Assembly: GCA_024640685.1 (NCBI GenBank) | Contig: JAHEEN010000004.1 | Location: 1 to 45,328 of the forward strand | DNA: 45,328 nucleotides | Direction: 5' to 3' | Origin: Rhodospirillaceae bacterium | GTDB taxonomy: Bacteria; Pseudomonadota; Gammaproteobacteria; Steroidobacterales; Rariloculaceae | Part shown: positions 3,749-34,300 of the stretch, piece by piece | Layout: every line of letters starts with the position of its first letter | Position numbering within the stretch: the stretch's first letter is position 1 | The notes under the pieces: model-generated | Database searches by the model: none | The model's input: only the letters and a program-made list of their open reading frames with translations | What the model was told of the DNA's origin: nothing | Made by a program: the position numbers and the translations under genes

Positions 3749-4750
3749 CTACTGGAGAAATCGCGAGGCGTTCTCCGGATCGCAGTTGTAGCCGTGCAGC
3801 GTCAGGTGCGGTGAGTACTGCCACTGCAGGCTGCCGCTGAACGGCTCGGCCAAATAAACCGGGTCTTCTACGAAGACGTCGATCGTCATGCGATTGCCGT
3901 CGCCGGTCAATGCGTAACGCTCGATGGTGTGCTTTTGGTTGCTCGACGGCACGCCTTGCCCCGTGACCGACTGCTGCTCGGCGAACGCGACAGTGTCGAC
4001 GACGAGGGCATTGTCTTCCCAGCGGCCGATCGAATGGCCTTGCGGCGTCGGTTCGATATCGTCCGGATGTCCTCGGCCGTCCATATAGACGGTTCGTACG
4101 GCATCGAAGAACTCGCTGCGGATCGTCACGACATCGTCACCGAGCTCGATCCCGCTGAGGTAGAGCACGTTCGACATGACGATTCGCGGCGACTGCGGCG
4201 CAACGCACTCGACCGGACGCATGTCGGTCAAGTAGCTGTAGTCGGCTTTTGCGCGCTGGCCGGCGGGCGTCAGCGCCGTCGCGTTCAAAGCATCGGAGAA
4301 CGCCGAGATCGACTCCGGCACGCCTCGCCAGACGCCCGCGATCGTATCGGTCGTTGCGTCGCGCTGCTCGGGTGCGCTGTGGACCTGCGCTAGAACCGTG
4401 CCGTCCTGCTTCGTCAACGACAGCAAGATGACGCCGTAGTATCCGGCGCGTTTGTCCGGGTGGCCGCGCACAGCGACGATATCTCCCGGTTCCAGCGAGT
4501 CCGGCGTCCAGCCGCTGCGCGCCATGATCGGCGTCGCGCCGGTCTCGACGAGCCATTCGACGGTTTCGCCGGCCGCGTTGACCGACTCGACCGTGACGTA
4601 GACGTGCGGGTTACGCCAGCCGTACTCGGTCACGACACCTTCGAACGCCGCCACTGAGTTGGCGTCGTAGCCGGCCTCACTGTGATGGGCCGTGGCGGGC
4701 AGACTGGCGAGCGCGCCTGCGAGGGCGCCGAGAATACATCTATAATTCAT
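3749..4750 (-). CDS. DUF6152-type exported two-domain protein (paralogue 1)
   Basis: 333 residues. The signal peptide ends in ATA and the mature chain would start HHSEAGYD. An N-terminal DUF6152 domain of about 100 residues follows, with the shared WRNPHVYVTVE motif and a conserved SLEPGDIVAVRGHPDK segment. A C-terminal domain of about 190 residues carries the motif GHSIGRWEDNALVVDT, which recurs in the other family members here. No enzymatic function is established for the family that I know of. The histidine-rich start and NPH motif suggest metal binding, by inference only. The downstream neighbour converges; upstream the gene is followed at some distance by ligB on the same strand. Confidence 0.8.
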   Translation of the reverse strand: MNYRCILGALAGALASLPATAHHSEAGYDANSVAAFEGVVTEYGWRNPHVYVTVESVNAAGETVEWLVETGATPIMARSGWTPDSLEPGDIVAVRGHPDKRAGYYGVILLSLTKQDGTVLAQVHSAPEQRDATTDTIAGVWRGVPESISAFSDALNATALTPAGQRAKADYSYLTDMRPVECVAPQSPRIVMSNVLYLSGIELGDDVVTIRSEFFDAVRTVYMDGRGHPDDIEPTPQGHSIGRWEDNALVVDTVAFAEQQSVTGQGVPSSNQKHTIERYALTGDGNRMTIDVFVEDPVYLAEPFSGSLQWQYSPHLTLHGYNCDPENASRFLQ

Positions 4751-4832: not shown

Positions 4833-5693
4833 CTAGTACCACAGCGCCGGCTGCGCGCGATTTTCGAGCACGAGCAGGCCGGCAGCCGTGTTCGAGACCG
4901 GAATGTGGTAGCTGCCGTGAATTTTATCGACGCGGTCGCCGAGCGCGCCGCGCGCCGCGAGCCACATGATGATCTCGGTGCCCTGCGTGCCGCCGAGCTT
5001 CACGATGTCGTGGATCGATAGCGCCGTCAGCGCGCCGGGATCGTCGATGATTTTCGCCATGCACATCTCGTCGAATTCTTTGTTGATGAAGCCGGCACGC
5101 TGCCCGTCGAGCTGATGCGAGAGGCCGCCGGTGCCGACGATCAGGACCCGCAGTTCATCGTCGAAGCTTTCGAGCGCTTGTCCGATCGCCCGCCCAAACG
5201 CAAGACAGCGCGATGTTTTCGGCAGCGGATGCTGCACGGTATTGATGTGGATCGGCAGCGTCGCGACCGGCGGCGGCGTGCGGTCGGGCCATAGCAGCCG
5301 CATCGGGTTGACGAACGCGTGGTCGACGCGCATCTCTTGGCACGTCGCAACGTCGAAGTCTTGCTCGACGAGCGTTTCGATGACGTGCCACGAAAGCTCC
5401 GGGATACCTCGGTAGGGTGGAAATGTCGGCAGCCCCCAGCCCTCGTCCTCGACCGAGTATTCCGGTGCCGCGCCAACCGCAAATGTCGGCAGGTTGTCGA
5501 GGAAGAAATTGAGCCCGTGATCGTTGTAGATCACGACAGCGACGTCCGGTCGCGCAGTGGCTAGCCACTCCCGCGCCCGCTCGTAGCCATCGAAAAATGG
5601 CGCCCAGTAAGGCTCGTGCTGCAGACCGTTCGCCATCGCGTTTCCGATCGCCGGAATGTGCGAGGTCGTCACGGCGCCGACGATCGTCGCCAT
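4833..5693 (-). CDS. ligB: Extradiol ring-cleavage dioxygenase, catalytic (LigB-type) subunit
   Basis: 286 residues of the class III extradiol dioxygenase beta subunit, as in protocatechuate 4,5-dioxygenase. Visible active-site landmarks match LigB: His12 in TTSHIPAIG and His59 in YNDHGLNFF as iron ligands, the catalytic-base histidine in GTGGLSHQLDG, and a late glutamate in GGTQGTEIIMWLAARG. The chosen ATG 5693 shares one base with the stop of the alpha subunit (TGATG), so the subunits are translationally coupled. It would open a catechol-type aromatic ring next to a hydroxyl. Substrate (protocatechuate, gallate or another) cannot be read from sequence, and no later pathway genes are nearby. 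Confidence 0.88.
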   Translation of the reverse strand: MATIVGAVTTSHIPAIGNAMANGLQHEPYWAPFFDGYERAREWLATARPDVAVVIYNDHGLNFFLDNLPTFAVGAAPEYSVEDEGWGLPTFPPYRGIPELSWHVIETLVEQDFDVATCQEMRVDHAFVNPMRLLWPDRTPPPVATLPIHINTVQHPLPKTSRCLAFGRAIGQALESFDDELRVLIVGTGGLSHQLDGQRAGFINKEFDEMCMAKIIDDPGALTALSIHDIVKLGGTQGTEIIMWLAARGALGDRVDKIHGSYHIPVSNTAAGLLVLENRAQPALWY

Positions 5694-6031
5694 CAGCGGC
5701 CTTGCTCGGCGAGCATCGCCTTGAAATCGTCGACGGACATGCCGGTCTGCTGGGCGCCGATATCCTGAACGCTGAGGCCGAAGATGCCTGCGAACTTGGC
5801 GAGGTAGTAGATATTGCCGCCGGCCTCGATCAATGCGAGCACGTTGCGGCGGCGAATGGCATCGCGTTGTACGTCGGTGAGCTCGAATCGAGCGCAGTAC
5901 GCATCCTCGTCTGCAAGGAACGCATCGCGATTCTCCTTGCTGTTGAACGAGTAGCACATCTTGTTCAGGCGATAGCCCTTCATCGCTTCGTGGCCATCGA
6001 AAATCGTCGTCCCCGGAATGTCCTGAACCAT
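5693..6031 (-). CDS. ligA: Extradiol dioxygenase small (LigA-type) subunit
   Basis: 112 residues matching the all-helical LigA alpha subunit that caps the active site of LigAB dioxygenases. Landmarks are MKGYRLNKMCYSFNSKENRDAF near the start, LTDVQRDAIRRRN in the middle, and GGNIYYLAKFAGIFGLSVQ before the C-terminus. The frame extends upstream to 6187, but ATG 6031 gives the normal family length and has AAGG eight bases before it. It overlaps ligB by one base, with LigA first as in known operons. A small divergent gene lies upstream, so the promoter should be in 6032-6230. Confidence 0.87.
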   Translation of the reverse strand: MVQDIPGTTIFDGHEAMKGYRLNKMCYSFNSKENRDAFLADEDAYCARFELTDVQRDAIRRRNVLALIEAGGNIYYLAKFAGIFGLSVQDIGAQQTGMSVDDFKAMLAEQGR

Positions 6032-6249: not shown

Positions 6250-6483
6250 ATGAACGCGATGACGAAGCCGCACTGCCAGGCTGCAATCGATTCGAACGAG
6301 TGCCGTTGGCTCGAGCGCAAGGCCGTCGAGCTTGCGCGCGAGCTGAACTGCCCGCTGCCGGATGCGCTCGTTGCGGCGCGCTGCGAGTTCGAGAGTCTGA
6401 AATCGCGTCCGAAGGCGCCGGTCGTTGCGCTTCTCGATTGGCAGGCCCGGCGCTCGCTCAGTTCTCGGGAAGCGAGCAGTTGA
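6250..6483 (+). CDS. Small hypothetical protein
   Basis: 77 residues, unrecognised, soluble, with three cysteines (two in the first 18 residues) and a helical, charged middle (WLERKAVELARELNCPLPDALVAARCEF). ATG 6250 is favoured over the upstream GTG 6232 because GGGAAG lies five bases before it. The gene diverges from ligA and its 3' end overlaps the end of the convergent DUF6152-type gene by 26 bases. It could be a genuine small protein, or a chance frame. The good ribosome site and helix-like residue pattern are the arguments for keeping it. Confidence 0.45.
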   Translation: MNAMTKPHCQAAIDSNECRWLERKAVELARELNCPLPDALVAARCEFESLKSRPKAPVVALLDWQARRSLSSREASS

Positions 6484-7462
6484 ACGGCTTGATCTGCTCG
6501 CCCGGAATCCAGACGAAAGCCTCTCGCATCGTCGCGGTGCCGTCGAAAATACGCGGGTCGACGACCTCGGTCTGGTAGTTCAGGCGGCGACCGTCTTCGC
6601 TGACTGTGAAGCGTTCGACGATCTCTGCCGTGGGGCTGAACGGCGTGCCGAGATCGTCGAAATACTCGGCGCTGACGCGGCTCGTGCGCACGACGAGCGT
6701 GTTGCCCTCCCATTGTCCCGTCGAGTAGCCGTAGTGGCTCGTGGGTTGGCCCGCGGGGTTCGCAGCGCCCTGCATGTGAATCGTCCGCCGGCCGTCCCAT
6801 TCCTCGAGCCTGAGCTCTATCGTGTCGCCTTGATCGGCGAACTGGATCGGATACGGGCTGAACATCATCGCCGGCATGCCGGGCGGCTCGCAGCGCAGCG
6901 CCGGATCGTCGACGAGCGGATCCCAGCCACCGCGCGCGTTCAATGCAAACTCCGTAAACGGCAGATGCGGCTCCTCACGCACTTGCTCGGCGCTCCAGAC
7001 ACGAAAGATGCCACTGGCCTCACGCTCGCCCTCGGCGACCGCCGCATTCGAGAACGGCGCCGGCGGCACGTTGCGGCCAATCGCAAGCGCACGCTGCGGC
7101 CATAACGGGACCTCGGTGCCGTCGGCCAGCGTCATCGTGTACGCAGCCATCGCTGGTAGGCCGGTGCGCGACAGCGCGCCGAGCAATGTCACGCGGTCGC
7201 CGACCGAGACGATGTCGGCGCTGTAGCCGGCGCGAGCGAGGCTGTTCGGCGAGCCGGACTCGGCAGTCCAAGTCTCGGTGACGCCGCTCGCCGAGACGCG
7301 CTGCAATGTCAAAACGACATGCGGATTGCGCCAAAACACGGAGACGACGTCACCCTCGATCGTGCCGAGGTTCTCGGTGTCATAGGCGACCGTCGTCGCA
7401 TGATGGCCGTGCGCCAGCGGTACGATCAGCGTCATTAGGGCAAGCAATGTCGTGCGGATCAT
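6458..7462 (-). CDS. DUF6152-type exported two-domain protein (paralogue 2)
   Basis: 334 residues with the same layout as the protein at 3749-4750. The signal peptide ends in AHG and the mature chain would start HHATTVAYD. The DUF6152 domain has FWRNPHVVLTLQ and SVGDRVTLLGALSR. The C-terminal domain has GYSTGQWEGNTLVVRT in place of the consensus GHSxGRWxxDxLVVxT, and a late NYQTEVVDPRIF segment. Paralogues 1 and 2 flank the ligAB genes, and this copy lies 21 bases downstream of the YncE-like gene on the same strand, so those two are probably co-transcribed. Function unknown; metal binding is an inference from the histidines. Confidence 0.8.
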   Translation of the reverse strand: MIRTTLLALMTLIVPLAHGHHATTVAYDTENLGTIEGDVVSVFWRNPHVVLTLQRVSASGVTETWTAESGSPNSLARAGYSADIVSVGDRVTLLGALSRTGLPAMAAYTMTLADGTEVPLWPQRALAIGRNVPPAPFSNAAVAEGEREASGIFRVWSAEQVREEPHLPFTEFALNARGGWDPLVDDPALRCEPPGMPAMMFSPYPIQFADQGDTIELRLEEWDGRRTIHMQGAANPAGQPTSHYGYSTGQWEGNTLVVRTSRVSAEYFDDLGTPFSPTAEIVERFTVSEDGRRLNYQTEVVDPRIFDGTATMREAFVWIPGEQIKPFNCSLPEN

Positions 7463-8547: not shown

Positions 8548-8628
8548 CGTTATGTATCCAATAACGGTTATTCTAACGGTTAGGCGTGTCGAGAGGCCCG
8601 GCTGCAGGCAGTTAACCGTTAATTAACG
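8548..8628. promoter_or_regulatory. Array of TAAC-S-GTTA palindromes, candidate metal-regulator operator
   Basis: Between the divergent YncE-like gene and the zinc operon there are three odd-centred 11-bp palindromes: ATAACGGTTAT (8561-8571), CTAACGGTTAG (8573-8583) and TTAACCGTTAA (8612-8622). The first two centres are 12 bp apart, one helical turn. The region also holds CGTTATGTATCCAATAACG (8548-8566) and the perfect 12-mer CGTTAATTAACG (8617-8628). The GTTAT...ATAAC orientation of the 19-mer resembles Zur boxes, but the spacer is longer than in the enterobacterial consensus, so the regulator is not assigned. Confidence 0.45.
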
Positions 8629-8698: not shown

Positions 8699-9007
8699 AT
8701 GGTACGAACACTAAGTGCAATGACATTGCTGTTTCTAGCCAGCGCCGCTCACGCCCACACGCCGATCTGCGACTGCTATGACAACGGTGACGATACGATT
8801 ACCTGCGAGGGCGGTTTCAGCGACGGCGGCACCGCACAAGGCATTCCGATGCGGATCGTCGATACGTCCGGCCGCGTGCTGATCGAGGGCGCGATGAGTG
8901 ACAACAGCGATTTCACGTTTGCAAAGCCGAATGTCGACTTCCTCGTCGAGTTCGAGGGCGGCGAGGGGCATGTCATACAGATCGATGGCCGTGACATCGA
9001 GGAGTAG
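8699..9007 (+). CDS. Small exported His/CxC protein of zinc-uptake cluster
   Basis: 102 residues, first gene of the zinc operon. The signal peptide ends in AHA, and the mature protein would begin HTPICDCYDNGDD with a CxC pair (Cys24, Cys26) and a third cysteine at 36, followed by acidic strands (CEGGFSDGG, FLVEFEGGEGHVIQIDG). The C-terminal part looks like a small beta-sandwich. GGGAG seven bases before ATG 8699 supports the start. I know no named function. The histidine start, CxC and position suggest a periplasmic metal-handling or sensing role, which is inference. The next gene begins one base after its stop codon. Confidence 0.75.
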   Translation: MVRTLSAMTLLFLASAAHAHTPICDCYDNGDDTITCEGGFSDGGTAQGIPMRIVDTSGRVLIEGAMSDNSDFTFAKPNVDFLVEFEGGEGHVIQIDGRDIEE

Positions 9008-9008
9008 C

Positions 9009-9854
9009 ATGATTCGGCGAGACTCCGCGATGAGCGTGCGGCGCTGGGCGGTGCTGCTAGTCGCGATGTTCTTTTCGTCGGCCGAAGCGCACTTCCAGTT
9101 GCTCTACACGCCCGAGGCTGCGCTGCAGTCGTCGTCGGCCGTACCGCTCGCGCTGGTGTTCTCCCACCCGTTCAACAACGGCTACACGATGGACATGGGC
9201 GCGCCCGAGGAGTTCTATGTCGTCAGCCAGCGCGGTGCCGAAGCGCCTCGTCGAACGACGGACCTGATGGAGTTTCTCGAGCCGGTCACGTGGTCGGGGG
9301 TCGAGACTCAGGCCGCTGCATTCATAGCAAACCCGCCGCGGCGGGTGACCCGGTCATTGGGGGACTACACCTATGTGTTGAGGCCTGCGCCGTACTATGA
9401 GGCCGGGGAAGACAAGTACATTCAGCAGGTCACGAAGACCGTCATTAACGTCGGTGGCTTGCCCGGCGCGTGGGACGAGCCGCTCGGATTGCCGGTGGAG
9501 ATCGTGCCGCTAGACAAGCCTTACGCGAATTGGGTCGGCGGCGTATTCCGAGCGGTCGTGACCGCTGGTGGGCAGCCGGTACCGCACGCGGAGGTCGAGA
9601 TCGAGTATCTGAACCACGAGCCGCAGATCGATGCGCGGCGTTTCGACTCCGACGGGAAAGTCACGGCGCCGCAGGATTCGTTCATCACGTTGAGCATTCG
9701 CGCCGATGCGAACGGCCAGGTCATGATCGGCTTGCCGAAGGCTGGCTGGTGGGGCATCTGCGCGCTCGACCTGGACGACGGACTCGAGCACGACGGCAAA
9801 GAGTTGTCGCTCGATGCCGTGCTTTGGGTCCAGGCCAAGGACATGGTGCGCTGA
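9009..9854 (+). CDS. DUF4198-family periplasmic metal-associated protein
   Basis: 281 residues of the DUF4198 family, which occurs with nickel, cobalt and zinc transporters (NikK-like proteins). ATG 9009 is chosen since it follows the previous stop by one base and sits behind GGAG. The signal peptide ends in AEA, so the mature chain would start HFQLLYTP, the usual histidine start of this family. Inside are FSHPFNNGYTMDMGAPEEF and a C-terminal Ig-like region (GGQPVPHAEVEIEYLNH, then GQVMIGLPKAGWWGICAL). It probably binds metal in the periplasm and hands it to the uptake system encoded downstream. Which metal is not readable; zinc is suggested by znuABC. Confidence 0.8.
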   Translation: MIRRDSAMSVRRWAVLLVAMFFSSAEAHFQLLYTPEAALQSSSAVPLALVFSHPFNNGYTMDMGAPEEFYVVSQRGAEAPRRTTDLMEFLEPVTWSGVETQAAAFIANPPRRVTRSLGDYTYVLRPAPYYEAGEDKYIQQVTKTVINVGGLPGAWDEPLGLPVEIVPLDKPYANWVGGVFRAVVTAGGQPVPHAEVEIEYLNHEPQIDARRFDSDGKVTAPQDSFITLSIRADANGQVMIGLPKAGWWGICALDLDDGLEHDGKELSLDAVLWVQAKDMVR

Positions 9855-9864
9855 CGGTTCCGAT

Positions 9865-10512
9865 ATGAATGCCGTGACGACGTATGAGGTGCGACCCGCC
9901 GGCAGTCGCTACGAAGGTGCGGTCATATTGCTCGTGACGATCGCGGTCGTCGCAGTGCTGGCCCTCTACGTTCGCGAGCAAGGACGGTCCGATGACGTCG
10001 AGGAGATATTCGAGTGGCAGGTCAGCGCGTTCGCGACGCTGACGGGCGCCGATCAGGCGATCTACAACTCGCTGTACACAGTCGCCGAAGAGATTCCATA
10101 CATCTACGACGACATCAACTTCTCGAATGCACCCGGCGAGAAATTCCGATGGCCGTCGATCGAGGACTTTCAGTATTATCTGCTGCCGCCGTTTTACAAG
10201 GACACGAGTTGGGAGCAGAACGGCTCGCTGCAGTGGTCGCTGTATGAGCCGTTGCCCGAGGGCGAAATGCAGGGCTCGACGCTCTATCTCGGCACTGACG
10301 GGCAGCTACCGGGCCAAGGCTCTTTTCTGCTCGTCATCGGTCACGTCCATGCTGGGTTTACGAACAACAACGCGATCGTGATCTGGTGGAACGAGGCCAA
10401 CCACGTCGAGATGCCGGAGAGCGGGTTCCAGGACGGGCTGATACTGCGTGGCTGGCGCGAAGTCGTGCCGTATAGCGGCGAGCAGGAAGTCGATCGAATT
10501 TATGGGGAGTAG
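9865..10512 (+). CDS. DUF6162-like single-pass membrane protein
   Basis: 215 residues with one N-terminal transmembrane helix (about residues 18-37) and a periplasmic domain rich in aromatic residues and tryptophan (WPSIEDFQYYLLPPFY, SLYEPLPEGE). It has a histidine pair in VIGHVHAGF and another histidine in WWNEANHVEMPE. It matches my recollection of the DUF6162 family seen in zinc-uptake clusters; that name should be checked. ATG 9865 is taken because it lies just after the DUF4198 stop and just ahead of the helix. The stop is three bases before znuA, so it is in the same operon. Role unknown. Confidence 0.7.
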   Translation: MNAVTTYEVRPAGSRYEGAVILLVTIAVVAVLALYVREQGRSDDVEEIFEWQVSAFATLTGADQAIYNSLYTVAEEIPYIYDDINFSNAPGEKFRWPSIEDFQYYLLPPFYKDTSWEQNGSLQWSLYEPLPEGEMQGSTLYLGTDGQLPGQGSFLLVIGHVHAGFTNNNAIVIWWNEANHVEMPESGFQDGLILRGWREVVPYSGEQEVDRIYGE

Positions 10513-10515
10513 GGC

Positions 10516-11439
10516 ATGCGTCTGTCGGATCTAATACAGCGACCGTTGCTTGGTCTTGTAACGATCGTGCTCGCGTTTGCGGCCGGCGCCGCCGACGCGG
10601 CCGGCTTGAAAATCGGCATCACGCTGCATCCGTACTATAGCTTCGTCGCCAATATCGTCGGCGATCGCGCCGAGATCGTCCCGTTGATCGACGCCAACGC
10701 GAATCCCCACGGCTATGCGCCGCAGCCGAACGACATGATCCGGATGACGACGATGGACGTGTTGATCGTCAACGGCATCGGCCACGACGCGTGGGCATTC
10801 GAGATTCTCGATGCGGCCGGCGTCGCTGACACGCTGCAGCTGATCTACGCGAACGATGGCGTTTCTCTGATCCCGATTGCCGGCGATCCGAGCGGCGAGA
10901 AGATCGTCAACCCGCATACGTTCATCTCGACGACTGCGGCGATTCAACAGGTGTACACGATTGCCCGGCAGCTCGGCGAACGCGATCCGGACAACGCGAC
11001 GTATTTCCGTAACAACGCACGCCGTTACGCGCTCGAGATTCGGCGCTTACGCTCGGAGTTCGACGAGAAAGTCGTCGGCGTCAATCTGTCCAACTTCCGT
11101 TGTGCGACGATGCACAGCGGCTACGACTACATTTTGCAGGAGCTGGGCTTGCAAGTGACGGCGGTCATCGAGCCGCGCCACGGCGTCGAGCCGTCGGCGC
11201 GCCAGCTCGCCGATACGATCGATAGAATCGAGGCCGCCGACGTCAACGTGTTGTTCGCCGAGAAGTACTTCGCAAGCCGGCTGTCCGACACGATTCGCGA
11301 GGCGACCGGCGTCAACATGTATTCGATCTCACATATCAGCAGCGGCGAGTACACGGCCGAGAAGTTCGTCTCGGAAATGCGCGAGAACTTGGGGACGTTA
11401 GCCCGTGCGATCACCGACACGGCTGATGCTAGCCGTTGA
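10516..11439 (+). CDS. znuA: Zinc ABC transporter substrate-binding protein ZnuA
   Basis: 307 residues, cluster A-I metal-binding protein. After a signal peptide the mature part starts GLKIGITLHPYYSFVANIVGD. The three canonical histidine ligands are present: His65 in NANPHGYAP, His134 in NPHTFIS and His200 in CATMHSGYDY; His273 in SISHISSGEY may be the fourth. It lacks the long His/Asp-rich loop of enterobacterial ZnuA. The protein captures Zn(II) (Mn(II) is possible for the family) in the periplasm for the ZnuBC permease encoded immediately downstream. A strong GGGGAG overlaps the preceding stop codon just before the ATG. Confidence 0.9.
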   Translation: MRLSDLIQRPLLGLVTIVLAFAAGAADAAGLKIGITLHPYYSFVANIVGDRAEIVPLIDANANPHGYAPQPNDMIRMTTMDVLIVNGIGHDAWAFEILDAAGVADTLQLIYANDGVSLIPIAGDPSGEKIVNPHTFISTTAAIQQVYTIARQLGERDPDNATYFRNNARRYALEIRRLRSEFDEKVVGVNLSNFRCATMHSGYDYILQELGLQVTAVIEPRHGVEPSARQLADTIDRIEAADVNVLFAEKYFASRLSDTIREATGVNMYSISHISSGEYTAEKFVSEMRENLGTLARAITDTADASR

Positions 11440-11446
11440 GCCACGT

Positions 11447-12178
11447 ATGAACGAACGGCGTATTCACGGTCCGGCGATCGAGCTCGACGGCGTAAGCCTA
11501 ACGCTGGGTGCGACGCGCATCCTCGAGAACGTCAGCTTCTCGGTCGCAGCCGGCAGTATCCACTGCGTCATTGGCGCGAACGGTGGCGGCAAGACGTCGC
11601 TTGTGCGTTCGATGCTCGGCCAGATGCCGCACACCGGACGAATTCAGATTCAGTGGCATGACAATCGTGTCGTTGGCTATGTGCCGCAGGTACTCGACTT
11701 CGACAAGACGTTACCGGTCACAGTCAACGATTTCATGGCGATGGCGTGTCAGCGGCGCCCGGTCTTTCTCGGTGTCTCGAAGTCGAGAAGGCAGGAGATC
11801 GACGAGGTTCTCGAGCGATTGGGTCTGGCAGGGAAGGGCCGTTACAAGCTCGGCACGTTGTCCGGCGGTGAGCGGCAGCGTGTGTTGTTCGCCCAAGCCT
11901 TGATTCCCGAGCCGGCATTGCTCGTGCTCGACGAGCCGATGACTGGACTCGACGTCGCAGGACACGATCTGATCGAACGCTCGATTGTCGAGTTCGCCCA
12001 AGCCGGCGGCACGGTCGTCTGGATCAACCACGACATCGTCCAGGTCAAGGAGATCGCCGATACCGTGACCTACGTCGATCGCGAGGTGCGGCTGCAGGGC
12101 AACGCACGGGAAGTGCTAGCGAGCGGTGTTGCGGCCGGGCTGTTCCCGAGTCTCGCAAACGCCTTGCCGGCGACGTAG
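11447..12178 (+). CDS. znuC: Zinc ABC transporter ATP-binding protein ZnuC
   Basis: 243 residues with all ABC ATPase motifs: Walker A GANGGGKTS, a Q-loop in GYVPQVLDF, signature LSGGERQRV, Walker B LLVLDEP, D-loop GLDVA and H-loop WINHD. It powers the ZnuB permease from the cytoplasmic face. The start is uncertain: ATG 11447 gives a normal N-terminus, while ATG 11426 lies inside the end of znuA and would overlap it; neither has a strong ribosome site, which fits translational coupling. The gene sits between znuA and znuB in the same direction with short spacings. Confidence 0.88.
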   Translation: MNERRIHGPAIELDGVSLTLGATRILENVSFSVAAGSIHCVIGANGGGKTSLVRSMLGQMPHTGRIQIQWHDNRVVGYVPQVLDFDKTLPVTVNDFMAMACQRRPVFLGVSKSRRQEIDEVLERLGLAGKGRYKLGTLSGGERQRVLFAQALIPEPALLVLDEPMTGLDVAGHDLIERSIVEFAQAGGTVVWINHDIVQVKEIADTVTYVDREVRLQGNAREVLASGVAAGLFPSLANALPAT

Positions 12179-12193
12179 GCGCTAGAGACCGCG

Positions 12194-13099
12194 ATGGATT
12201 GGTTCTACGACATACCGCGTCAGTTCCTGATCGGCTTGGCCGATGAAGGTATTATCCATTACACGTTTTTATATGAGTTCGTCGTCAACGGGTTCCTCTG
12301 TGCGTTCGTCATTGGTCCGCTGCTGGGCGGCATCGGCACGATGGTCGTCGTCAAGCGGATGGCGTTCTTCTCGCAGGCGATCGGCAACGCTGCGCTGACC
12401 GGCGTCGCCGTTGGCGTAATCATCGGCGAATCGTATACGGCGCCGTATATGTCGATGTTCGGCTTCTGCATATTATTCGGGCTGTTGCTGAACTTCTCGA
12501 AGAACCGAACGAAGATGTCGTCGGATACGCTGATCGGCGTGTTCTTGTCGATTTCGCTAGCGATCGGCGCGACGACGCTTCTATGGGTCTCGGCGCGCGT
12601 CAATACGCACATTCTCGACACCGTGATGTTCGGCTCGATATTGACCGTCAATACGACCGACATGAACGTGTTGCTCGTCACGGCCGTATTGACGGCGCTG
12701 GTGGCGCTGCCGCTCTACAACCAGATGCTGCTCGGCAGCCTGAACCCGAGCCTCGCGCACGTGCGTGGCGTACGTGTGCACCTGCTCGAATATGTGTTCG
12801 TCTTGCTCGTGACGATATTGACGGTTGCTTGCGTCAAAATCGTAGGCGCCGTTCTTGTCGAGGCGCTACTGTTGATACCTGCAGCGGCAGCGCGCAATCT
12901 CAATCGCTCGATTCGCGGCTTCGTGCTGTGGAGCATCGCGTTTTCGACGATCAGTTGTTTGGTCGGCATTTACGCACCGATGCGCTGGGATCTGCCGGTG
13001 CCGTCGGGCGGTGCGATTATCCTGTCGGCAGCGACAATATTCTTGATCACGATGGGCATCCGCATGGTCGTGCCGCGGTTTCGCGAGGCGGCGCTTTGA
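12194..13099 (+). CDS. znuB: Zinc ABC transporter permease ZnuB
   Basis: 301 residues of the ABC-3 metal permease family, with about eight transmembrane helices. A family-typical stretch VVVKRMAFFSQAIGNAALTGVAVG lies near the N-terminus and contains the segment that contacts the ATPase. KIVGAVLVEALLLIPAAAARNLNRS occurs in the last third; the VG-A-L--ALL--PAA-A pattern there is diagnostic of ZnuB/MntB-type permeases. It forms the zinc channel with ZnuC. It starts 15 bases after znuC, and the degenerate binding protein follows 25 bases after its stop. Confidence 0.9.
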   Translation: MDWFYDIPRQFLIGLADEGIIHYTFLYEFVVNGFLCAFVIGPLLGGIGTMVVVKRMAFFSQAIGNAALTGVAVGVIIGESYTAPYMSMFGFCILFGLLLNFSKNRTKMSSDTLIGVFLSISLAIGATTLLWVSARVNTHILDTVMFGSILTVNTTDMNVLLVTAVLTALVALPLYNQMLLGSLNPSLAHVRGVRVHLLEYVFVLLVTILTVACVKIVGAVLVEALLLIPAAAARNLNRSIRGFVLWSIAFSTISCLVGIYAPMRWDLPVPSGGAIILSAATIFLITMGIRMVVPRFREAAL

Positions 13100-13124
13100 C
13101 GGAGTCGGCAGAGGAGGTCTGAAA

Positions 13125-14102
13125 GTGGCAATGATGAAGCTTTCTGAGATCGTCCGGTTCGGTGTGTTTGCCGGCGCCTTGTTGTCTGCCGGTTGGGTAC
13201 GAGCGGCCGACGAGCCGACTGCGACCGTCGTGACGGGCATGCAGGCGACATACTCGCTGGCCGTCGCGCTGACGGCCGACACGCCTATCGACGTCGTCAA
13301 TGTGCCAGCCGATGGCCGGCAGTTGACGTTGCTCAGGGACTACATCGGTCGACGCATGGACAGGCTCGCTCCGACGTTCGCCGATGCGAGCGCCGTCGTA
13401 TCCGTGACGAATGCATTGCCAGGCGACCCAATCTATCGCTTTGCGCGCGAGGCTAATATCCGAATCGTCAACATCGATGCGGCGATTCCGTGGTCGCTGA
13501 CGTCACCCGGTGTCGCGTTGACGGACGCGCCGGTATCGGACGTTGCCTGGGGCGTCGACACGGACACGCCGGATGCAGCGACGAGTCCGTATTTCTGGCT
13601 CAGCATTTCGAACACGATTCGAATGGCCGACTTGATCGCACATGACTTGGCGGAGATGTTCCCCGACTCTGCGCCCGCGATTGCGCGGAATCTCGACACG
13701 TTGAAGCGCGGCCTGCTCGCGGTCAGAAACGAGTATCAGAACCGCTTGATCGAGATCGGCGATGACACGGTCTTTGCGTTGACCGGAGATTTCGTCTACT
13801 TGACGAACGACATGGGGCTTTTCGTCGATGGTTACTTCATTAAGCAGGACATTCGCTGGACCGAAGACGATCTTGCGGCACTGACACGGCATCTCGAGGA
13901 CAGTGGCATCCGCGTCGTGCTCCACAAATGGCTGCCGAGCGATGAGATTCAACAGGCGATCGCTGCGGCCGGTGCCGAGCTCGTCGTTCTCAATACGGCC
14001 GATCCTGGCCTAGTCGCCGACCGACAACTCGTTGCCGATGGCTTGCAGCAGATTCTCGAGCGCAACCTCGAGGCGTTGTTTTCGGCGCTGGCGGGCGACT
14101 AG
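13125..14102 (+). CDS. ZnuA-like protein lacking the histidine metal ligands
   Basis: 325 residues with the overall fold of cluster A-I metal-binding proteins and a signal peptide. GTG 13125 is the likely start: AGGAGG lies seven bases upstream. It aligns by pattern with ZnuA in the SPYFWLSISNTIRMADLIAHDL helix region, normally DPHFWLD..., but tyrosine (Tyr156) replaces the ligand histidine. The third ligand site, normally HDAFGYL, reads TGDFVYLTNDMGL, with Gly at the ligand position. The first-ligand loop reads PADGRQLT rather than PHxY. All three histidines are therefore missing. It closes the zinc operon. It may bind something else, act as an accessory, or be decaying, though its reading frame is intact. 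Confidence 0.75.
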   Translation: MAMMKLSEIVRFGVFAGALLSAGWVRAADEPTATVVTGMQATYSLAVALTADTPIDVVNVPADGRQLTLLRDYIGRRMDRLAPTFADASAVVSVTNALPGDPIYRFAREANIRIVNIDAAIPWSLTSPGVALTDAPVSDVAWGVDTDTPDAATSPYFWLSISNTIRMADLIAHDLAEMFPDSAPAIARNLDTLKRGLLAVRNEYQNRLIEIGDDTVFALTGDFVYLTNDMGLFVDGYFIKQDIRWTEDDLAALTRHLEDSGIRVVLHKWLPSDEIQQAIAAAGAELVVLNTADPGLVADRQLVADGLQQILERNLEALFSALAGD

Positions 14103-14246
14103 CAGTCTGTCAAAAAAATCTCAGAGGAGTGCAGTTCAAGGCGAAAACGCTCGAGAAAGCGCAGTGTACACGCCAGTACATGAGCATTTTGAGAGCGTTT
14201 TCAACGCCGAAATGTGCCGTCTGAGATTTTTTTGACAGACTGCTAG
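14099..14246. repeat. 148-bp inverted-repeat element (MITE-like), also a bidirectional terminator
   Basis: The ends are a perfect inverted repeat of 27 bases: 14099-14125 matches the reverse complement of 14220-14246. Each arm contains a run of seven A/T next to GTCTGTC or GACAGAC. The interior is partly palindromic too: GCGAAAACGCTC on the left and GAGAGCGTTTTC on the right, so the whole unit can fold into one long hairpin. The stop codons of both flanking convergent genes (TAG at 14100-14102, and CTA at 14243-14245 read on the minus strand) lie inside the arms. No transposase is inside. No second copy was noticed in this window. Confidence 0.7.
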
Positions 14247-34128: not shown

Positions 34129-34221
34129 CGGCCTTCTTCACTATGCTGGCGCCGTCCTGCGGCGTATCGGTCAATGCGCGCTGGACACGGCTGGGTTTCG
34201 CATTCAAGCTCGATGCGCTGA

Positions 34222-34300
34222 TAAATGGCACACCCCTCGAAAGAGGGGGTCGCAAAGCCACCGGTCTAAGGAAGTTTCTAGGACAGCGGGGTTGCCAGCC
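34222..34300 (+). promoter_or_regulatory. Cyclic di-GMP-I (GEMM-I) riboswitch aptamer
   Basis: The sequence has the GEMM-I layout. P1 is TGGCA (34226-34230) with TGCCA (34293-34297). P2 is CCCCTC-GAAA-GAGGGG with its GNRA tetraloop. The invariant linker CGCAAAGCC precedes P3, whose 5' side CCGGTCTAAGG carries the tetraloop receptor. The closing segment AGCGGGGTTGCC ends the aptamer. Every landmark of the family is present in order. It would sense cyclic di-GMP and control the genes that follow. Confidence 0.92.

Follow-up and report, generated by a model that had tools for sequence, protein, structure and literature searches.

The window analysed here, a stretch of 45,328 nucleotides, contains an operon of seven codirectional genes on the forward strand, which encode a NikL-like protein, a DUF4198 protein, a DUF6162 protein, a metal-binding periplasmic substrate-binding protein (SBP), an ABC ATPase, a permease and, in last place, the protein that we will call F. 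The NikL-like periplasmic protein (8699–9007) scores 53 bits against NCBIfam NF058648, under the cut-off of 100, and stands where FpvJ stands in pyoverdine-type operons. Its predicted N-terminal residue after signal cleavage, between AHA and HTP, is a conserved histidine, and the DUF4198 protein (9030–9854; PF10670, 1.1e-51) is likewise predicted to begin with histidine, after cleavage between AEA and HFQ. The third gene (9865–10512; PF19659, 7.7e-14) encodes a membrane-anchored periplasmic domain, DUF6162, at the FpvK position. Its structure model has a pLDDT of 83.7, and a PDB fold search with this model gave no match at E ≤ 0.001. Of the 20 rows in the alignment, 18 retain His160 and His162 of DUF6162, and nothing on this domain was found in the open literature that was searched. 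The next three genes encode an FpvC-like metal-binding SBP (10516–11439; PDB FpvC, 6r3z, E = 4.9e-83) with invariant His65, His134, His200 and His273, an ABC ATPase at the FpvD position (11447–12178; PF00005) and an ABC-3 permease at the FpvE position (12194–13099; PF00950, 1e-45). The operon therefore has the order C-D-E-F (SBP-ATPase-permease-F), as is the case for FpvF. No TonB receptor or siderophore gene adjoining the operon has been identified within the window. Farther 5' of the operon, the genes at 3749–4750, 4833–5696 and 6458–7462 encode two DUF6152 proteins and a LigB-type ring-opening dioxygenase; Pseudomonas loci of the same type as the window also carry DUF6152 genes, adjoined by Abhydrolase_10 and DUF6644 genes.

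An operator-like GTTAAC repeat (GTTAACCGTTAATTAAC) is located 5' of the operon at 8611–8627 and is probably a shared control site. Upstream of nikL in 19 loci of the same type as the window, GTTAA/TTAAC occurs 3.4 times per 230 bp, as against 0.157 in 1444 background windows from the same loci. A spaced GTTAA/TTAAC pair is present in 13 of the 19 loci and in 0.35% of the background. These counts support the reading of the repeats as one putative control site for the whole operon. A crude scan of the upstream operator region with consensus strings gave no convincing site for Zur, Fur or NikR, and the best Zur-like match upstream of nikL reaches 8/14 in the window and at most 10/14 across the 19 loci.

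The F gene (13125–14102) is an intact frame of 325 codons with a GTG start and a TAG stop, and begins 25 nt after the permease stop at 13099. A perfect Shine-Dalgarno sequence, AGGAGGT (13112–13118), lies 6 nt 5' of the GTG, in agreement with the long frame and strong ribosome site described in the initial annotation of this gene; the start could also be one of two ATG codons, at 13131 or 13134. The N-terminus is a hydrophobic stretch, a putative signal peptide, that ends between VRA and ADE, and residues 6–20 form a helix in the structure model. PF01297 (ZnuA) is the sole Pfam family over its cut-off (62.3 bits versus 29) and covers residues 136–318 only, which bears out the ZnuA-like pattern noted earlier. 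In an hhalign comparison with the upstream SBP, Tyr156 of F pairs with His134 and Thr220 pairs with His200. The substituted ligand positions had been named as Tyr156 and Gly221; Tyr156 is the right residue, while Gly221 is one residue off. The loop that should hold the first ligand (NVPADGRQL) has no histidine in the profile alignment to the upstream SBP, as had been proposed. F therefore fails at all three loop positions where a ZnuA-type protein has histidine (no first-loop His, Y156 and T220). The entire protein has three histidine residues (173, 256 and 267) and no cysteine. F is a ligand-free relative of the metal-binding SBP encoded in the same operon.

The upstream SBP had been considered a normal ZnuA and the operon a zinc operon, and neither label holds. 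The best PDB match of the SBP is FpvC of P. aeruginosa (6r3z) at 282 bits, while the next non-FpvC entry scores 91 bits, and by this sequence match the protein is FpvC-like. The curated Azt/Znu cut-offs are all missed by the operon, with 119.7 bits for AztC (cut-off 350), 151.8 for AztA (220), 121.8 for AztB (280) and 47.2 for ZnuA (268). We reject the zinc label because no zinc SBP scores as high as FpvC and because these cut-offs are missed; the profile searches, the tree and the gene order described below also point to an Fpv-type operon, and a separate ZnuA-family ABC locus is found on contig C174 of the same genome. The operon shares the broad cluster A-I superfamily with AztABCD and ZnuABC, but its SBP, permease and ATPase stay under the Azt/Znu cut-offs and F has no AztD-like role.

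According to PMC6954188, FpvCDEF is an ABC importer in which two periplasmic binding proteins, FpvC and FpvF, serve FpvDE in pyoverdine uptake, and the P. aeruginosa genes have the order fpvGHJKCDEF. The same text describes a periplasmic FpvJ-FpvC-FpvF complex in P. aeruginosa and states that FpvC binds ferrous iron and, citing Brillet et al., that FpvF binds pyoverdine.

A profile search has identified relatives of F in 29 loci of named genomes, which belong to uncultured Gammaproteobacteria, Pseudomonas sp. KNUC1026, Achromobacter, Allopusillimonas, Marinobacter and one metagenome-assembled genome (MAG) titled Klebsiella pneumoniae. The operon in this last record is of the window type, typical of uncultured Gammaproteobacteria, and the record is probably mislabelled. 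F lies directly 3' of the permease gene in 29/29 of these loci and directly after E in 16/16 further Pseudomonas loci, and the same paralogue is thus found elsewhere in the same operon position; all of these loci were collected through the F gene itself, a count that operons without F would escape. In 17 of the 29 loci the F start and the permease stop share four bases (in L026, by way of an upstream GTG that the alignment does not use). DUF4198 is present in 20 of the 29 and absent from five (L050–L054), and four contigs end before its position. In the order to which the organism belongs, 13 of 246 genomes match F, 11 of them convincingly. The weak matches G017 and G032 have been rejected as orthologues. 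The metal SBP at the G017 locus is a different one, as are its ATPase and permease; G032 has been excluded on score alone. A class-level search of 369 genomes gave a full-length match in the organism's own genome only, and 52 other genomes gave partial matches of at most 65 bits.

The genus of strain KNUC1026 has been surveyed with a 30-protein F profile. By best score, 92 of the 119 Pseudomonas-genus genomes have a full-length match (E below 1e-70), 25 have weak matches only and two have none. A window-type copy (351–394 bits) is present in seven genomes and a lower-scoring copy (259–296 bits) in 90, where the scores of this second type are not independent of the profile, which contained five Achromobacter-like proteins. 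Six of the 16 Pseudomonas loci examined are of the window type and ten are of the second type, with the order PepSY reductase (FpvG), FpvH, FpvJ, FpvK, C, D, E, F. We call the second type pyoverdine-type because of this FpvG-to-F order and because its C protein is 84–88% identical to PDB FpvC in Pseudomonas; "pyoverdine-type FpvF" is thus assigned by gene order and FpvC identity, in a comparison that lacks the authentic PA2410 (FpvF). In the other pyoverdine-type loci, identity of C to PDB FpvC is 79–82% in two from Burkholderiales and 73% in the one from Marinobacter (L051 and L054 are unscored). Five of the seven Pseudomonas genomes with the window-type branch also hold a pyoverdine-type copy, whereas none was found in the environmental strain KNUC1026.

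A profile HMM of pyoverdine-type FpvF, made from 15 F proteins (the ten Pseudomonas loci and L050–L054), matches F of the window at 164.7 bits (E = 1.5e-49) and its FpvC-like neighbour at 5.9 bits. In the reverse direction, an HMM of 31 window-type F proteins gives 175–219 bits for the 15 pyoverdine-type F proteins and 2–54 bits for FpvC and other ZnuA proteins; one outgroup row identical to a C protein (Z_L096, C_L053) was removed before these scores were counted. In a tree of 108 rows, made by a quick method with SH-aLRT support, a single branch with a support of 100 separates all 46 F proteins. Within it, the window-type group has a support of 84 and the pyoverdine-type group 99. The C proteins split likewise (98 for the window-type, 99 for the pyoverdine-type group, within which the duplicate row falls), and because C and F divide in the same way, the cassette has diverged as a unit. 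By profile and tree, the degenerate paralogue is FpvF-like and falls in the FpvF clade. It shares with FpvF of P. aeruginosa the clade, the place after the permease, a ZnuA-type fold without His ligands and an FpvC-type partner, but differs in that its identity to the pyoverdine-type F clade is only about 33% and in its residues at 240, 267 and 269.

The initial annotation had held that the gene is likely kept for a purpose, and this view stands. Relative to its closest named relative, the F gene has a dN/dS of 0.10, with a dS of 1.83 that is near saturation, and the same comparison gives 0.06–0.08 for C, the ATPase and the permease. By this measure the F gene is under purifying selection, and its position is kept in all 29 loci.

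The AF2 model of F, made from 30 rows, has a pLDDT of 89.6. Its best PDB match is FpvC (Foldseek E = 3.6e-15), and a VIA-align superposition of the two gives Z = 27.8 and an rmsd of 2.9 over 268 residues, with the bilobed fold intact. FpvC (6r3z, 6ru4, 6r5s and 6r6k) is thus the best match to F by fold and to the neighbouring SBP by sequence; FpvC keeps its metal ligands, while F has none of them. His65, His134, His200 and His273 are invariant in 44/44 FpvC proteins. Histidine at position 156 is found in only three of 46 F proteins (L032–L034), and at position 220 in none of the 46. In the alignment, the loops that hold the FpvC ligands carry W158, Y225, D242, W245, H267 and W269 in 31/31 window-type F proteins. 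The pyoverdine-type proteins retain W158, Y225 and W245, have His at 267 in 10/15 and Arg at 269 in 14/15, and do not retain K240. Judged from the alignment, the conserved residues of F may cluster in the cleft, which suggests that the site has been remodelled to fit a ligand that is not a bare ion. The ligands probably differ between the two branches, because H267, W269 and K240 are not retained in pyoverdine-type F.

The two branches also differ in gene content. FpvG and FpvH are present in 14/15 and 15/15 pyoverdine-type loci, respectively, but each is found in 0/31 window-type loci, six of whose contigs (L026, L036, L038, L039, L044 and L049) begin within or just before the operon. The window operon has DUF4198 in addition, and its hosts extend beyond pyoverdine producers. 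A TonB receptor was found in 2/31 window-type loci with a single query that is too narrow to judge the other loci. Judged from gene content and phylogeny, the window operon is a distinct sister branch of the pyoverdine-type system, with nickel, iron or another metal as its cargo. The open literature that was searched has no description of the window-type branch and no report that joins DUF4198 with FpvF or FpvCDEF.

DUF4198 and NikL proteins are the NikKL accessory proteins of nickel/cobalt ECF transporters. The window operon resembles such systems in that it carries DUF4198 and NikL-like genes whose products have a predicted N-terminal His, but here they accompany a two-SBP transporter of the ABC-3 (cluster A-I) type rather than an ECF transporter. 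Histidine follows a plausible signal-peptide end in 18/19 window-type DUF4198 frames (the L030 frame begins too early to judge), and most of the window-type NikL-like proteins examined have the same N-terminal His. An Ideonella DUF4198 protein binds Ni through its N-terminal His with a Kd of 18 nM, as given in PMC12537917. Expression data have also tied DUF4198 to iron, and the Fur-regulated DUF4198 genes of Caulobacter, as described in PMC3751524 and PMC12004947, lend some support to iron as a possible cargo. An indirect test, a search for urease and NiFe hydrogenase, gave no support for nickel. Urease has no match in the organism's own genome (93% complete) and matches in five of 22 family genomes, four of them over the cut-off, while NiFe hydrogenase is found in 0/22 family genomes, the organism's own included. 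Lanthanide was considered as well, and no support for it was found in PMC12482762.

Taking these results together, we consider it likely that F serves an ABC importer with two SBPs as its second, FpvF-type periplasmic binding protein and is the partner of the metal-binding SBP. The FpvF clade, the last place in a J-(DUF4198)-K-C-D-E-F operon, the lack of metal ligands and the purifying selection are read from the sequences, and from there we infer the partnership with the metal SBP. In the proposed mechanism, F would hold the organic part, namely the metal-chelator complex and/or the emptied chelator, in a cleft whose rebuilt loops are aromatic and polar. The FpvC-like protein would bind the bare metal at its His site and deliver it to the permease, and the FpvJ/NikL-like and DUF4198 proteins, through their predicted N-terminal His, may help to pass the metal on. 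Because the FpvG and FpvH genes are missing, the cargo is probably either a divalent ion for which no reduction is required or iron whose reductase is encoded at another locus. Several PepSY_TM proteins are encoded elsewhere in the organism's own genome, so a reductase acting in trans is possible. It is also possible, if somewhat doubtful, that the system imports a divalent metal that is not reduced, for example nickel, after stripping it from a metallophore, in which case F would hold the chelator, the His-first DUF4198 and NikL/FpvJ-like proteins would pass the metal, and C would import it. Among the roles offered for F before, a partner of the metal SBP and a different ligand both fit FpvF, while a strict metallochaperone is at odds with the missing ligands and the proposal of a competitor found no support.

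A protein without metal ligands could instead be a pure scaffold that docks the metal SBP, the FpvJ-like protein and the permease to one another and binds no small ligand. The membership of FpvF in a periplasmic multiprotein complex, described in PMC6954188, would suit such a role, but the same text, citing Brillet et al., has P. aeruginosa FpvF binding pyoverdine. A mere scaffold would also have no need of strictly conserved aromatic and polar residues in the former ligand loops, and the bilobed fold is intact, so that we regard this reading as unlikely. Less probable still is a metal SBP with an alternative site formed by, for example, D/E222, D242, H267 and D/N290. H267 and D242 are indeed found in 31/31 window-type proteins, but position 222 is Q or H in 3/31 and position 290 is N or K in 4/31. 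F of the window has just three histidine residues and no cysteine to offer, and a fully equipped metal SBP is already encoded in the same operon.

A metallochaperone or competitor in a zinc operon, with an AztD-like role, is very improbable. The ATPase, permease and SBP do show weak, sub-cutoff similarity to AztA, AztB and AztC, but no zinc SBP comes within about 190 bits of FpvC. AztD is a beta-propeller while F has an SBP fold, a separate ZnuA-family ABC locus is present on C174, and the matches to the Zur consensus upstream of nikL are poor. The loss of the ligands might by itself suggest a decaying duplicate without function. We give this reading practically no weight, and pseudogene decay is refuted by the ligand loss common to the 46 F proteins (three of which retain one His), the dN/dS of 0.10 and the position kept in 29/29 loci.

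FpvCDEF is known from pyoverdine uptake, and the reason why it has two binding proteins is understood only in part. The window-type sister branch, which occurs outside pyoverdine producers, and beside a pyoverdine-type copy in some Pseudomonas, offers a natural comparison, with the two-SBP core, no reductase and DUF4198 added. It also connects FpvJ with the NikL family, and through it the roles of F, J and K could be tested apart from pyoverdine. If the operon does encode a metallophore-stripping importer, the FpvCDEF architecture would be a general device for unloading metallophores and not a speciality of pyoverdine. Pipelines that annotate both SBPs as zinc-binding are likely wrong here.

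Two further features of the window have been observed. A 147-bp near-perfect palindrome (14100–14246; MFE −83.5 kcal/mol, z −13) sits precisely where the F gene and a convergent minus-strand gene, which ends at 14243, meet, with both stop codons in the palindrome ends. Four full-length copies, this one included, are present in the organism's own genome with 87–100% identity, and the element is MITE- or terminator-like. A c-di-GMP-I riboswitch aptamer (Rfam RF01051, 76.3 bits) is located at 34217–34299.
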